From NCBI GenBank assembly GCA_950295325.1, contig OX485804.1, forward strand, positions 66,378,033-66,442,032: a stretch of DNA of 64,000 bases, given 5' to 3'. The DNA is from Polytrichum commune (taxonomy: Eukaryota > Streptophyta > Polytrichopsida > Polytrichales > Polytrichaceae). Positions 33,315-40,573 of this stretch are shown in pieces. Positions within the stretch are counted from its first letter, which is position 1; the number at the start of each line of letters is the position of its first letter. The notes under the pieces are model-generated. The model searched no databases. It was not told where the DNA came from and saw nothing but the letters and a program-made list of their open reading frames with translations. A program made the translations under genes and the position numbers.

Positions 33315-35977
33315 ATGGACGGGAACAGAGCAGTAGGAGCACCAGTAGGAACTGGCGTGGTACCGGCTTCGGCGGACCTTAGCATGTGCTACCAGTGCGG
33401 GAATTTCTGTGAGAATGGTGTGACCTATTGCCATAGCTGCTACGACGTGCGATCAGAAAGCGATTTTCGGAATGAGCAGCGGTGGCGCAATCTGGAGAGC
33501 GACTTGCAGGTTGTAGAGGCCAATCTGCACAAGGAGAGGGCCACCACTTTGCGGCAGGAAGACACTCTCAAGTCCTTCAGGCAGATGTTGATGCAAGGCA
33601 TTCATGCCGACGTCACGATCGTAACCGGCGAAAATGACAAAACACCTGCGCATCGTGCTGTCCTCGTGAGCATTACCAAAATCTCTTTCTCTGTTTGCAT
33701 TTGACATATAATCTCTACTGTTATTTTCCAACATAATTTTTCATTATTGTGTGCTTAGTTGACCGAATTATCCTGTAACAAACTCTGTAGAAGCAAGCTG
33801 TGCGAGATTGTATGCACAAAGCTTATTATTCGTGGCATTATCATTCATCCTTTACTCTTGTGTGTAACTGAGCCAGTCAAGCTCGTAATTGGCGAAAGTA
33901 AAAAAACACCTGCGCATCGTGTTGTGCTTGTAAGCATTAAAAAAAAAGAAAATCCTCTTTCTCTGTTTGCTTTTGACACATAACCTCCACTTCACTCCAT
34001 ATTTTTCGAACCTAATTTATCATTATTGTGTGCTAGTTCAAGTGACCGAATTGTTCCTGTAATAAACTGTGTAGAAGTGAGCCTTGCAAGATTGTTTGTA
34101 GGTAGCTTGTTCTTGGCTTTATCATTAATCCTCCTATCTCTGTGTGTAACTGAGCCAATGAAGATCGTAAGTGGCAAATATCACGAACACCTGCGCATTA
34201 TGCTGTCCTCTAAGCATTGATAAAATCTCCTTCTCTGCTTGCATTTGACACATAGCTTCCACTCCATTTTTTCGAACATAAATTTTCATTTTTGTGTGCT
34301 AGTTCAAGTGACCGAATCGTTCATGTAATAAACTGTGTAGTAGCAAGCCTTTTAAGATTGTACGCAGAAAGCTTGTTCTCTGCGGTGTTATAATCTACCT
34401 ACCTACAGTTGTGTGTAATGGAGCCTCTTGCATTGGAAGCGTACTTAATTGATGAACTTTAAACGTTAAAATCATATACAAACCATGTGTGCATCACTAT
34501 GTTGTGTATCATACTTAGTACATTTATGCCCAAGAGTTGTAGGAATTGCTGTTTTGACATTCTTCATGTAGTACAGCTGCAACAATCAAGCTCAATTTGT
34601 GTTGGTTTTTGCAATGTGGTTCTTCCTGTCGTGACATACTTCTGCGAAAGTTAGGGTATGATTTTTGTATTCTCTTTTTCAGGTGTTTATGGATCATTAC
34701 ATGTGAACCGACTGTGTGGATGTTCGTGATATATTCATGTGTGTCAGAGAGCTGCAACTCTCCTGTCCTATTACTGTTTAACTATCATGAATTGTGTTCC
34801 AAATATCTACTTCTTATATATCTTCTGTTGCTGAAAAGATGATTATACTCTCCATCTACACCTCTGCAATGAGCGTTAACCTCAGCATGTAGTCTGTCTT
34901 CTGTGCACTTCCAGACAGAGAATGCTGTGCTTGACATGTGCATGACTGAGAAAGGCTGTATTGTAATCAGGCTAGCAGGTCCCCTGTGTTCAAGGCGATG
35001 TTTGAGCATGAACTCAAAGAGAAGACGTGTGCCCTCATACATGTTGCCGATGTGCCAACATCTGCCATGCGTGCCCTGCTGCTCTACCTCTACACTGGTA
35101 AGCCACTTGGTGCAATATGGAGTTGCTCTCAACTTATCAATAACACAAAAGAGAACCACAGCTCCTCCCAACCAAATTTATTGCCATCCCGTGAGCACAA
35201 TTTTCTTTTAGAACTTGTACCTTCAGGTGTAGATCAATGTTTGAGGTATCTACAACTGTTAGTAGCAAACTGGATTGTAGCTGCTTGTCATCTAGCAATG
35301 TCTTCCATAGTCTGGGTTCCATGTGGGGAGCTTCAGATTACATATTTCATTGTAAATGTGGCGGTTTATTGTGTCTCTGTTCACAATTTGCTGGTCAGGT
35401 CTTACCTTGTGAACATGCGGTCCGGTAGTTCTCTGGTACATAAGAGGAGAGATTCTAAAGATCAGGCATTCTTGGCATGACCTAGAATATAGATCCTATA
35501 GGTTGCAGGGAGTGTTGTCTGTTAGGCACTGCTGTCAAAATGGAATAAACTCTGGTGATGTATGCCTCCAGATTTAAGTTGTCTTCAGGTAGTGGATGTA
35601 TTGTCTGAATCTCTAGACAGATCCTTTACCAGTAATTCTGAGATATATGTTGCAAACTGTTTTGTGCAGGGGATCATGACACAAATGCAATGAAGGAGCA
35701 TGGGATGGCTCTTTTAACAGCAGCACATAAATATGACATTCCTGATTTGAAAAAGGTTTGTGAAGCTGCAGTTGCAAGTGCGGTGCAACCTTCCAATGTG
35801 CTTGAAATTCTGCACCAAGCACGACTGTATGATGCACCATGGGTGCGGAAGGCTTGCGTTGATTGCATTGCCAGAAATTTGAAGCATGTAGCATACACTG
35901 ATGAATTTCGGAGTCTTATACATGACGACCCTGAAGCTGTATTAGATACTTTCCAAAGTATTGCCGCTCTTCAATAA
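33315..35977 (+). CDS. BTB/POZ domain protein with N-terminal Zn-ribbon-like motif, three exons, complete
   Basis: Exons 33315-33665, 34971-35097 and 35670-35977 join in phase to 261 residues ending at TAA 35975-35977. The N-terminus has CYQCGNFCENGVTYCHSC (Cys 25, 28, 32, 39, 42), then a charged, probably coiled-coil stretch (about 50-95). A BTB fold follows: HADVTIV, TPAHRAVL/ASRSPVFKAMFEHELKE, ALLLYLYTG, and a BACK-like helical tail. The same Cys motif and BTB order occur in Arabidopsis At4g08455. BTB proteins of this kind usually serve as substrate adaptors for cullin-3 ubiquitin ligases; the target here is unknown. I chose ATG 33315 because its context (GAAGATGG) is strong and it sits just before the conserved part; ATG 33270 is in frame upstream in a weaker context. 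Intron 1 (1,305 bp) carries repeats of the exon 1 boundary. Confidence 0.9.
33610..34440 (+). repeat. Tandem copies of the BTB exon 1 / intron 1 boundary
   Basis: Three imperfect units with a period of about 255-285 bp begin near 33,610, 33,870 and 34,150. Each carries the exon 1 end (CACCTGCGCATCGTGCTGTC and variants), then TCTTTCTCTGTTTGCATTTG, GTGTGCTAGTTCAAGTGACC and CTGTGTGTAACTGAGCC. Only the first is used in my gene model. The second still reads in frame (TPAHRVVL) up to a GTAAGC donor; the third has lost its donor. Either decayed duplication or a cassette with alternative exon ends. Confidence 0.8.
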
Positions 35978-36849
35978 CTGACATTGCCTTCTTTATTGGA
36001 AGGAACTGCAAGTGCTTCACCATGCCTAACTACGCAAAGGTGAGAAACCTGTGGATGACTTTTCAATGTCTAATATTGTGCAGACACGTTTGATTCAGAA
36101 ATCCTTAGCATGCAAGGATCAAACTTGCACGTCCCCACACTAGCACCATTTATGTCTTTGATGTGAAGTATAGATTTCTGTGGTGAGGTAGAATTGTTTC
36201 AAGAACATTACAGTACAAGAGTAAGGCACTATAACAACAATAGTACTTACTTCTGTAGGAGATGGTCCAGGCACAAAAACTGCTCAGCAAGAGAAAATCT
36301 TTGTTTGTGAAGCAATATATTTCCTCTACCAAAAAACGTTAGAGACCTATGGAAGTTGTAATTGTGGCATCAGTAACCTTCTTGTGAATGTACATGACAA
36401 CTACAATTTGTACTTGAGTTGATTGTAGAGTACATACGACATCCAGTCTGTTCTATGCAAACTCTGAAGATCCTAACAAGAATCTTTTTTCTTGGAAACA
36501 GGGGCCCCCAGAGTGGCAGGGAAATAACCTGGCAGAGTGGCTGGTATGCCTTTTGGGATAGGACGGACACTGTTGCTTGTCCTGGAGTTCTCAAACATGT
36601 GCCTTCATAAAGATTTGCAACCTCTATGTATTTGGACAAAGATGGTAGTCCTCACTATAATCACCTTTGTAAAAGGATGAGGTATCATGAAATATGGCAT
36701 TGTCATGTGCCTAGCTGTATTATGGAGGGATTTTTGAACTGAAGGCTTTGTTCCTCAAAATTGTCACACGATTGAAAATACCTCAATTTATGTAATTACA
36801 TTGATATTTGATTGAGTGTTGGGATCTTGTAAGATGCCGGTTTTTGGAG
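35978..36849. other. 3' flank of the BTB gene
   Basis: Probably 3' UTR followed by spacer, with AT-rich stretches. No further exon recognised. Confidence 0.4.
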
Positions 36850-37134
36850 TCATGAAGACAGTGAGTGAGACTTCTGGTTAGAACTTTGAGGAGCAGACGC
36901 ATACATTTCACGTTCAAAAGGCTTAGGCAATGCCATCAGGTATTTCTTTGTGTGTAGATACAATTCCTTTGAAGATGTATTAGTGTAATGTACTTTGAGA
37001 AATGATGATTTTACCTGTACAGCAGCATTGCGAATGTCCAGAGCGGATAGGCCAGCCATCATGGCATGCAGTAAAGATTGCTCGTTGGTTGCAAGTGACA
37101 AGTTGTGGGAATACTCTCTCCTACAGCCTCTGAT
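36850..37134 (-). CDS. Possible terminal exon of an unrecognised gene
   Basis: On the minus strand a frame opens after a fair acceptor (GTGCATTAG at 37,135) and runs 94 codons to a stop, with strings such as NEQSLLHAMMAGLSALDIRN and KKYLMALPKPFEREMYASAP. An internal CTGTACAG/GTAAAATC could be a donor, with CTTCAAAG the acceptor, giving a shorter form. A further candidate minus-strand exon lies near 37,898-37,970, behind the pyrimidine-rich acceptor TTCTTCTTCTCCTCTTCGCAG. I recognise no family. The gene would end tail-to-tail with the BTB gene. Confidence 0.3.
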   Translation of the reverse strand: MRGCRREYSHNLSLATNEQSLLHAMMAGLSALDIRNAAVQVKSSFLKVHYTNTSSKELYLHTKKYLMALPKPFEREMYASAPQSSNQKSHSLSS

Positions 37135-38275
37135 CTAATGCACGAGCCCAGAAAAAATCGAGAGAGGAAAATTTGTAAGTATCCTTGAATAACAATGAAC
37201 CTTCATACAAACAACTACGCCTAAAAAGTCTTTGCCTTGTACATAAATACTCATGGAACTGTTGTATCGGGCGTGTACTAGTCTGCAAATTCACGAAACC
37301 TTAGAGAAAGTGACATTGAAGTTTCACCATGATGTTCATGTTCAGGAAAATATCTTCGGTTTCCTCCTGTCCTGCAGGAGAACATCTCATTCTGCATGAT
37401 AAGACTCTTTGTAGCCAGCCAAAGTCTATCTCTACACATGTCTAATCCAGTGGAGGCATTCCTTTGTTTGATGTATCTACAGTTGATACGTGCTCTTATT
37501 GGGATTGAATTCTGTATTTGTTGTTACTTTCCTCTATTGCGTATACGTTAGACAATTGCAGCATGAGGACAGGTGGCGTATCGGGAAGTATTAGTGTCTC
37601 TGATAAGGAGGGGTCAGTTGAAACAACCTCGCTAATTTATCAGCCTAGACGATGTCGGCGAAGTCTCCAGCTCATCACAAGGCAACCTGGTTTCTTCGTG
37701 ACCGAATAAAATGCATGACCCCTCCTAGGCGGTGGACCGACAAGGCCATCGAGTAAAAGTCACGACGCTTCAGGAGAAACGAACACACACTGGGTTTTGC
37801 CTATCCGTCGCTGGCCGGTTCATATCGAAGAGTCAATTCTGCGAGAAACTGGTGCGCTCATGTAGATTCTGTTTAATTTCCTCATTTTACCGGCCTCCTG
37901 GCATCAGGATCATCATCATCGTCGATGCCTTGTCCTGACCCGCCCATCAGATACAGGCCTCTCAACTGCGAAGAGGAGAAGAAGAAGTTCCCGGTTAGCA
38001 CTTGACGTTCCTTTGTTCTATCTACTTTCAATTTTCGATGCATCAGCACTTCTTGCTCCAGACAGCGAAGGCTGATCAATTCTCATGACAGTGAAATGTT
38101 GCTTTTTCTGACTTAATTGAGGTGATGTGCCAGAGCTGTGATGTAATACGGTGAACTAGCCCTGGCATCGTCTTTTAACAGCACGCAGAACAGAGATCCC
38201 TTAACTCTAAATTGTGAGATATAGATTTGCAGCTTTCTGGTAATACGTATTGCCCTCGCCGTCGTTGTTGAATAG
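37135..38275. other. Unresolved stretch with candidate exons on both strands
   Basis: Plus-strand candidates are 37,562-37,708 (after GACAATTGCAG) and 37,925-37,993 (RYRPLNCEEEKKKFP), either of which could be a 5' exon of the peroxiredoxin gene. The second overlaps a minus-strand candidate exon. The sequence alone does not decide. Confidence 0.25.
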
Positions 38276-40573
38276 AATGGAAACTGAAGAATGGAGAAGC
38301 TGTGCAGTATGTGGAGGTGTGGGGCCCAGATGGAAGGTCAAGAAGGTTTGCTCCTGGAACGAGAGCCAGCTTCGCAGTGGAGCGGTTCAACAAGAAGCTT
38401 GTGGATGCTGTGAAACCTGTGGTATGTGTAGAGGCGTTCAAGGAAGGAGAAGACGCTGTAGAGTTTGGGCCCGATGCTGAGCTCGTCTCCATGTGCACGT
38501 GGGATTTGCGGGTTGTGCAAGAAGGTGTGATGTGCTCATCAGTTCCTGACAAGTCAGTGATCTATCTGGCTAGCCTCACTCGATCTGTCAGGGTGTGCAA
38601 TATTTCACTTTTTTAGTTTCCTTCCCTGAGGTAGCTGACGTCCTGACTTTCCTGCAACACTGTCCTCAACTAAGTTACTTCTGTGTGATCTGCTTTGATT
38701 TCTCTGTTGTTCTCCACGTTTTGCATCTGACCGACACCTTTCCTTGAGTGTAAAACAGCTCCGTTTGCCCCCATTGCCGCGGGTGATAAGCTGCCTGATG
38801 GGGAGCTGACATACTTGGATGATGATGGGAAGCTGCAGAAGCACATGATGTATGACCTTGCACGCGATAAGAAGGTGGTAATTTTCGGTGTGCCTGGAGC
38901 GTTTACCCCTACCTGCAGGTACCTAACCCTCCCTTTGTTTTCTCGTTCACATTCCTCAAGCTGTGCTGAAGTGGAACCTGATTGTGGGAAGCAAGCATGA
39001 AGCCAGCCACTTGACAAATAAGAACCCCACATGAAGAACTTCACGACTTAAACTATGCAAATTGCTACATACATGCAGATGGAGCCTTGCTGAGATTAGG
39101 TCTAACAACAGAGTCCGTAACAAACTGATAATATTGACCTCATCAAATCAAAGCAAAAAAAATTATACCACCTAATGTAATTATCGCATATATGTGCACC
39201 TCAAGACTTGTTAACATGTCCATTGGCTTCCTGGACTTTAGTCGTAAATTGGGAGAATCTTTTTGTGGACTGGTGGTTGCAGTTTGAAGCACGTTCCGGG
39301 CTTTATTGAGAGATCTGAGGAGCTCGTCGTTGATAAAGGAATCGCCGAGATTATTTGCATCACAGGTCAACTTCTGATGCCCTTTTGGAACAGTGGGAGT
39401 TGGAAACCCGTACTCATGCAGAAAGGTGTCAGGAATATAATAACAGTACAGAGCTCATTTATAATTCCAAAATGCAGATGCTTAGAAAACATGATAGGCA
39501 TTGTGATACTTATGTCAGTGGCTTCTTCTGTGACATTGGGTCAAGTTCCATGGGAGGTGGCAAGCATTTTTGTATGCCAACAAATGCTCCCTTCCATCAT
39601 GAAGCCCCCTCCACTCCATGCCCTCATAAGCTCTCGGAGTGTTTCCATGAATGGGGGTGAGAATGTGTGCAATGTGCACTTTCTCGTCATTTTCCTCATT
39701 CACACGGTGGGGTCCATTGTTTTTTTATTTAACCCCTCAGCTATCCTTCAATCAAAACTCTTCATTTCATGGGTAAACATTGACCGGACCTCACATTTTG
39801 GGACCTTTGTACTCGCCCGCCCCCGGGCGGTGGGGGTGGTTTAGGAATTTTAAGGCTTGAAGCCTACAATGAATTTTGATGACTACCACCTCACCCATCA
39901 AGACAAAGAGTATTTTGGGCCATGGTTTCTAGTTTGCTCCATAGTCCTCTCTGATTAATTCGCTAGTGATCGTAGAGGTCAGATAACGTGATTTTGTGTA
40001 AGTGTCTCTAGCGCGATTAGATACAAGGAGGCACATTATCACCATAATAGATGGCTCTGTCATGGCCATGGCCTTACCGCTACATCTAGTAATTGACACG
40101 TTTTGCCCTACCATCAGTTGTAGTACGCACCCAATACTTACCTTGCTACTACCGCGACTCAGTCAATTGGGCGCCTAATACAACTTGTGCCAAACGTCCT
40201 TCATCCATTACCTAGTTCATATTGATGGCCTTGCCTACTGCACTGTGATGCAGTCAATGACCCCTTTGTTACAAAGGAGTGGGAAAAAACCTACCCGGAC
40301 AACAAACATATCAAATTCTTATGTGACGGGTCGGCCACATACACAAAATCTATTGGATTGGAGCTGGACTTGATTGACCGTGGAATGGGAGTTCGATCAC
40401 GCAGATATTGTCTGCTTGTTGATAAGCTGATATGCAAGATAGCCAATATTGAAGAAGGTGGAGCTTTGGAATTGTCCACAGCTGAGAGGATATTGAAAGA
40501 CCTTGAAGCCATGGCCGCTGCAGCCGCAGCTGCAGCAGCAGCAGCTGCCAAGGCTAGTGCAGGATGTAAGTAA
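38276..40573 (+). CDS. Type II peroxiredoxin (cytosolic PRXIIB-like) with an extra N-terminal domain; 5' end not found
   Basis: Exons about 38276-38524, 38759-38918, 39283-39365 and 40254-40573 join in phase to TAA at 40571-40573. The last three give IAAGDKLPDGELTYLDDDGK, GVPGAFTPTC with the peroxidatic Cys, SLKHVPGF, EIIC with the usual resolving Cys, TVNDPFVTKEWEKTYP, ELDLIDRGMGVRSRRY and NIEEGG: a whole thiol peroxidase that reduces H2O2 and alkyl hydroperoxides. The tail ends in 12 alanines, which PRXIIB lacks. The peroxiredoxin part has no ATG before its conserved start, so an upstream exon is needed. The exon at 38276-38524 ends in the right phase (GAAG/GTGTGA) and encodes VQYVEVWGPDG, RFAPGTRASFAVERFNKKL and VVCVEAFKEGEDAVEFGPDA, a compact domain I do not recognise. 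That exon has no ATG either, so at least one more 5' exon exists. The peroxiredoxin is firm; the fusion is inferred. Confidence 0.8.

Follow-up and report, generated by a model that had tools for sequence, protein, structure and literature searches.

The window, by which we mean the whole 64,000-nucleotide stretch of DNA analysed here (G000:C2:66378033-66442032), belongs to a genome of 407.8 Mb in 64 contigs, approximately 406 Mb of which is held by the seven largest (C1-C7), a pattern suggestive of seven chromosomes. The genes in the window are plant-like and, judging from the types of peroxiredoxin (PRX) present and the gene structure, the source would be a plant, perhaps a moss. The part examined contains a type II PRX gene preceded by an exon encoding a small domain, and the preliminary description proposed that the two are fused. 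The features are listed below by window position; the donor matrix was typed from general knowledge and all donor scores, here and in the text, are rough.

37925-37993, plus strand: possible start exon MPCPDPPIRYRPLNCEEEKKKFP, leaving in phase 0, donor score 1.5 (a weak suggestion)
38276-38524, plus strand: domain exon, with an open frame, paralogues and constraint
38277-38316, plus strand: competing short first exon METEEWRSCAVCG, not in the frame of the domain but leading in frame into the PRX, donor score 4.0
38308-38524, plus strand: part of the domain exon homologous to exons in C3 and C4, 72 aa
38491-38524, plus strand: competing start inside the domain exon, MCTWDLRVVQE, in the frame of the domain, giving an 11-residue leader for the PRX
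38525-38758, plus strand: proposed fusion intron, phase 1, 234 bases, donor GAAG/GTGTGA, acceptor AACAG
38759-38918, plus strand: PRX exon 1, with the peroxidatic PGAFTPTC and TTT (Phe) replacing the ancestral Met1, aligned to the C1 paralogue and to poplar 1tp9
39283-39365, plus strand: PRX exon 2, containing the second cysteine (IIC)
40254-40573, plus strand: PRX exon 3, with the stop codon TAA at 40571-40573
40514-40549, plus strand: 12 alanine codons, past the end point of the C1 paralogue

Splicing of the three PRX exons produced an uninterrupted type II PRX reading frame with a Redoxin domain (Pfam, E 1.6e-25, 90.1 bits against a cut-off of 26.6). In the predicted fusion protein, Redoxin was found at residues 103-246 and the only other Pfam model to match was AhpC-TSA. 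The PxxxTxxC motif, which marks the peroxidatic cysteine of type II peroxiredoxins, is present in the first exon, and the second cysteine, which in these enzymes has a resolving role within the same subunit, lies where IICIT in the window aligns with ILCIS in the poplar enzyme (1tp9). The poplar protein is the best solved relative, residues 2-162 aligning from PRX residue 4 (E 6.1e-67) with both cysteines alike. The gene is thus, by its sequence, a sound type II enzyme with predicted peroxidase activity. The run of 12 alanines given in the preliminary description is exact. A donor-like GTAAGT was also seen at 40566, five bases ahead of the stop codon; a further splice from this site may affect the tail that follows the alanines, and the last residues given for the PRX are tentative.

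A search of the genome with the PRX protein gave 18 matches, including three that are pieces of the gene in the window. Two of the 18 are long frames in a single exon (288 and 290 residues), each with a leader; these look plastid-type, and loci L017 and L018 agree with the description of chloroplast PrxII as single-exon genes in streptophytes in PMC3095285. A paralogue at C1:49213206 (L015, C1:49208500-49218400) is 55.5% identical to the PRX in the window over 164 codons and has introns at identical positions. It differs in having its own ATG, in ending at ALEA, in having no such upstream domain and in lacking the second cysteine (IIVIS versus IIC), with only one cysteine in all. Because this intact paralogue lacks the second cysteine, the gene in the window may be the main cytosol-type two-cysteine enzyme of the genome. 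A decayed PRX copy with in-frame stops (L014, C1:49179319-49180243, minus strand) is located about 33 kb from the intact paralogue.

The C1 paralogue starts ATG GCC CCC ATT and the codon in the window homologous to that for Met is TTT (Phe). Since residue 2 of 1tp9 aligns with residue 4 of the query, the Phe before that residue occupies the Met1 position. The first PRX exon extends 5' of the TTT through CTCCG to an AG splice acceptor, and the PRX frame 5' of 38759 is closed by a stop at 38728-38730 before any ATG is encountered. A plant cytosolic enzyme of the IIB kind would have its own Met followed by API and a single domain; here the Met1 codon is TTT and the frame has no ATG. The poplar enzyme is likewise a single domain, 162 residues long and starting from its own Met1, whereas the PRX in the window needs an upstream exon and carries an alanine tail. 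With no start in its own frame, the PRX requires an exon 5' of it with a phase-1 end. No ATG exon with a phase-1 donor was found inside 38525-38758, so that the earlier statements that the PRX has no start codon of its own, and that the preceding intron contains no tiny start exon, were both borne out. For a tiny start exon of the form ATGG/GT, the sole ATGGGT in 34001-38758 is at 35839, inside the exon at 35642-35974 of a BTB gene, and this candidate was rejected.

The domain frame is open over 38272-38616 and its first in-frame ATG is at 38491. A genome search with the domain reading found three places among the best first-look candidates, all three of which were scored (distant copies may escape such a search). 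Paralogues of the domain are located at C3:31802072-31802299 (59% identical, E 3.3e-23) and C4:35243366-35243593 (53% identical, E 7.1e-19). In all three copies the exon starts at the same position (phase 0) and ends in GAAG/GT (phase 1), making this donor ancestral, and 35 of 73 columns are identical; the copy in the window retains 35 of the 42 residues common to C3 and C4. Differences at codon positions 1, 2 and 3 number 24, 18 and 42 between the window and C3 copies, and 24, 26 and 45 between the window and C4 copies. Using an NG86 script, pN was 0.272, 0.328 and 0.258 for window versus C3, window versus C4 and C3 versus C4, and 0.286 for the PRX versus its C1 paralogue; the corresponding pS values (0.781, 0.823, 0.753 and 0.859) are saturated, hence constraint can be claimed but not a ratio, and constraint dating from after the supposed fusion is not separable from earlier constraint.

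From these comparisons the upstream exon is real coding sequence, having two constrained relatives with the same phase-1 donor. The initial impression that it is well coded is supported beyond chance, since the frame is conserved in both of these relatives and the differences concentrate at the third position of codons. The proposed extent, 38276-38524, stood in part. The exon is open, coding and ends in a phase-matched donor, but the paralogue exons begin at the equivalent of 38308, although an acceptor for 38276 is the better one here: the acceptor conserved in the paralogues, at 38307, is poor in pyrimidines (4 of 18) and closely preceded by three AGs, whereas that at 38275 has 12 of 18 pyrimidines and no AG just 5'.

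No match to any of the three copies of the domain was found in Pfam or NCBIfam up to E 10, and no relatives were found in GTDB genomes or IMG/VR. A prokaryotic or viral origin was considered and rejected; a peptide pattern matched 241 genome-contig and 58 viral-contig stretches, and tblastn found no encoded relative. Against the PDB the best E value was 0.00042 with the single sequence, with no stretch passing on its own, and 0.086 with a profile; the sequences matched (antibody heavy chains, one ascorbate peroxidase and designed repeat proteins) were dismissed as chance. Two single-sequence AlphaFold models had mean pLDDT values of 55.3 and 51.7 and disagreed with each other, and fold searches with the first of these gave no match worth naming. 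That model, together with a PDG...GT pattern in the domain that we take to be TGS/beta-grasp-like, suggested a TGS/beta-grasp domain. The sequences did not support this candidate: none of the three copies matched such a family in Pfam up to E 10, and when the domain was compared by hhalign with a TGS exon from this genome the probability was 4.7% and E 0.0086 over 17 columns. The domain is therefore unrecognised, as originally described, in the sense that the searches of Pfam, NCBIfam, GTDB genomes, IMG/VR and the PDB gave no credible match. One cysteine, in the motif PVxC, is invariant in the three copies.

The C3 and C4 copies have the same exon phases as the domain in the window but, unlike it, have no PRX close by, the nearest matches being about 1.7 Mb (C3) and about 9 Mb (C4) away. 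They are probably stand-alone small genes. For C3, EKPRRKSKVAEKPAEK followed by a stop is a plausible short last exon, and the scan found no start exon. For C4 there are two candidate last exons, EKEPGAKGGGPN and the alternative EPKGGYFKRRKRHSA, each followed by a stop, the former overlapping the likely first exon of the neighbouring gene in another frame; a plausible phase-0 start exon, MSEKEKPPQQSSLC, was read by eye and falls under the donor threshold of the scan. Both copies adjoin a gene with an exon beginning WEDLYPGGKLPEGG (L012 and L013, minus strand) that has no Pfam match and is found in only these two places. C3 and C4 consequently look like a duplicated segment, from which the copy in the window stands apart. 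A shared neighbourhood as the origin of the window copy was rejected because the neighbour gene has no third copy (two of two candidates). Upstream of the domain exon in the window is the last exon of a BTB-type gene (35642-35977, plus strand; Pfam BTB, 22.2 bits over its cut-off, with the BACK models below theirs), whose next best match in the genome is in C4 at 6.17 Mb (42% identical).

Joining the donor at 38524 (score 3.9) to the acceptor at 38758 keeps the frame, so the domain exon does end in the phase that the PRX needs, as the preliminary description had it. Because the upstream exon lacks a start codon of its own, a further 5' exon is required, a point absent from the preliminary description. 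The best phase-0 ATG exon in 37000-38290, at 37925-37993, may be offered as a weak suggestion; a phase-0 site as good was present in 22% of 500 resampled 408-base sequences.

The alternative that survives best, though we regard it as unlikely, is that the PRX is made without the domain and takes only a leader from upstream. If the exon starts at 38276, the better acceptor, the first ATG is that at 38277, out of the domain frame, and from it the donors at 38316 (4.0) and 38421 (2.9) feed the PRX in frame. The leader could be METEEWRSCAVCG (ATG 38277, donor 38316), MCTWDLRVVQE (ATG 38491) or come from a tiny exon such as MRT at 37563-37572, and all three routes are in frame, with donor scores of 4.0, 3.9 and 1.5, respectively. 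However, such donor sites are common, the stretch scanned having nine phase-1 donors that score above 0 compared with 5.1 on average in 200 resampled sequences, and constraint on the 72-residue domain frame would be left unexplained.

We consider it improbable that the locus makes two products by alternative splicing, namely the domain alone, ending either at the intronic stop at 38614-38616 or in a last exon not seen here, together with the PRX or the fusion. The domain frame is open to 38616 and the relatives of the domain look like stand-alone genes, but the PRX would still need another start, and a weak scan of 38530-40250 for phase-1 tails found no basic last exon like the one proposed for C3. 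The failure to see a last exon in the window is itself weak evidence, as the C3 and C4 last exons are guesses. A dead chimera, in which a PRX copy without its start and former stop no longer yields a functional protein, fits the replaced Met1, the alanine run past the ancestral end and the degenerate C1 copy with stops, which indicates that PRX copies do decay in this genome, but is very improbable given that every PRX exon has an open frame, neither cysteine has been lost and pN is low.

These sequences are best read as a lineage-specific fusion between the small domain and a type II peroxiredoxin of cytosol type, which we hold to be moderately probable. It is favoured by the replacement of Met1, the ancestral phase-matched donor and the constraint on both parts. 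Counting against it, the best candidate start exon is weak, the ancestral acceptor at 38307 is poor and the donor at 38316 used from ATG 38277 scores 4.0 versus 3.9 for that at 38524. The fusion proposed originally is in part supported, by the change from Met1 to Phe, the constrained upstream exon with its phase-matched ancestral donor and the lack of a PRX near the paralogues; its first exon is a weak candidate, and short alternative first exons have donors that score as well.

Under the fusion reading, the ancestral small gene would have comprised a start exon, a domain exon of 72-73 aa (phase 0 in, phase 1 out) and probably a short last exon, and a copy of it would lie immediately 5' of a cytosolic-type type II peroxiredoxin gene. 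The ancestral phase-1 donor of the domain exon would then have been spliced to the acceptor just before the PRX coding region, after which the PRX would no longer have needed its own start, and Phe took the place of Met1. The resulting protein, predicted at 282 residues and about 30 kDa against about 20 kDa without the domain, would be a thiol peroxidase that retains the two catalytic cysteines and carries an accessory domain at its N-terminus and a tail of alanines. From this arrangement we infer the splice, the start exon and a single protein product; that the domain targets or regulates the PRX is speculation, and that it docks or localises the peroxidase is a guess.

The PRX part of HI0572 from Haemophilus (PDB 1nm3) is related to the PRX in the window (E 3.7e-20), and we take HI0572 to be a peroxiredoxin-glutaredoxin hybrid in one chain with the glutaredoxin C-terminal. 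The partner in the window is, in contrast, N-terminal and no family was found for it. Searches of titles and the opening lines of abstracts for moss type II PRX fusions returned nothing relevant, and the word 'fusion' does not appear in the text of PMC3095285, on PrxII.

It is conceivable, though we think it quite doubtful, that the domain represents an undescribed plant protein family that partners type II peroxiredoxins and that, via the PVxC cysteine, docks the peroxidase, relays oxidation from it or localises it, with the free C3 and C4 forms acting on PRX in trans. If transcripts confirm the fusion, this locus would illustrate clearly how, in nature, the exon of a neighbour can take over from a start codon. 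A cytosol-type peroxidase would then be obligatorily joined to another protein, and the locus would point to a small domain family, unnamed in the libraries searched, as a suggested peroxiredoxin partner.
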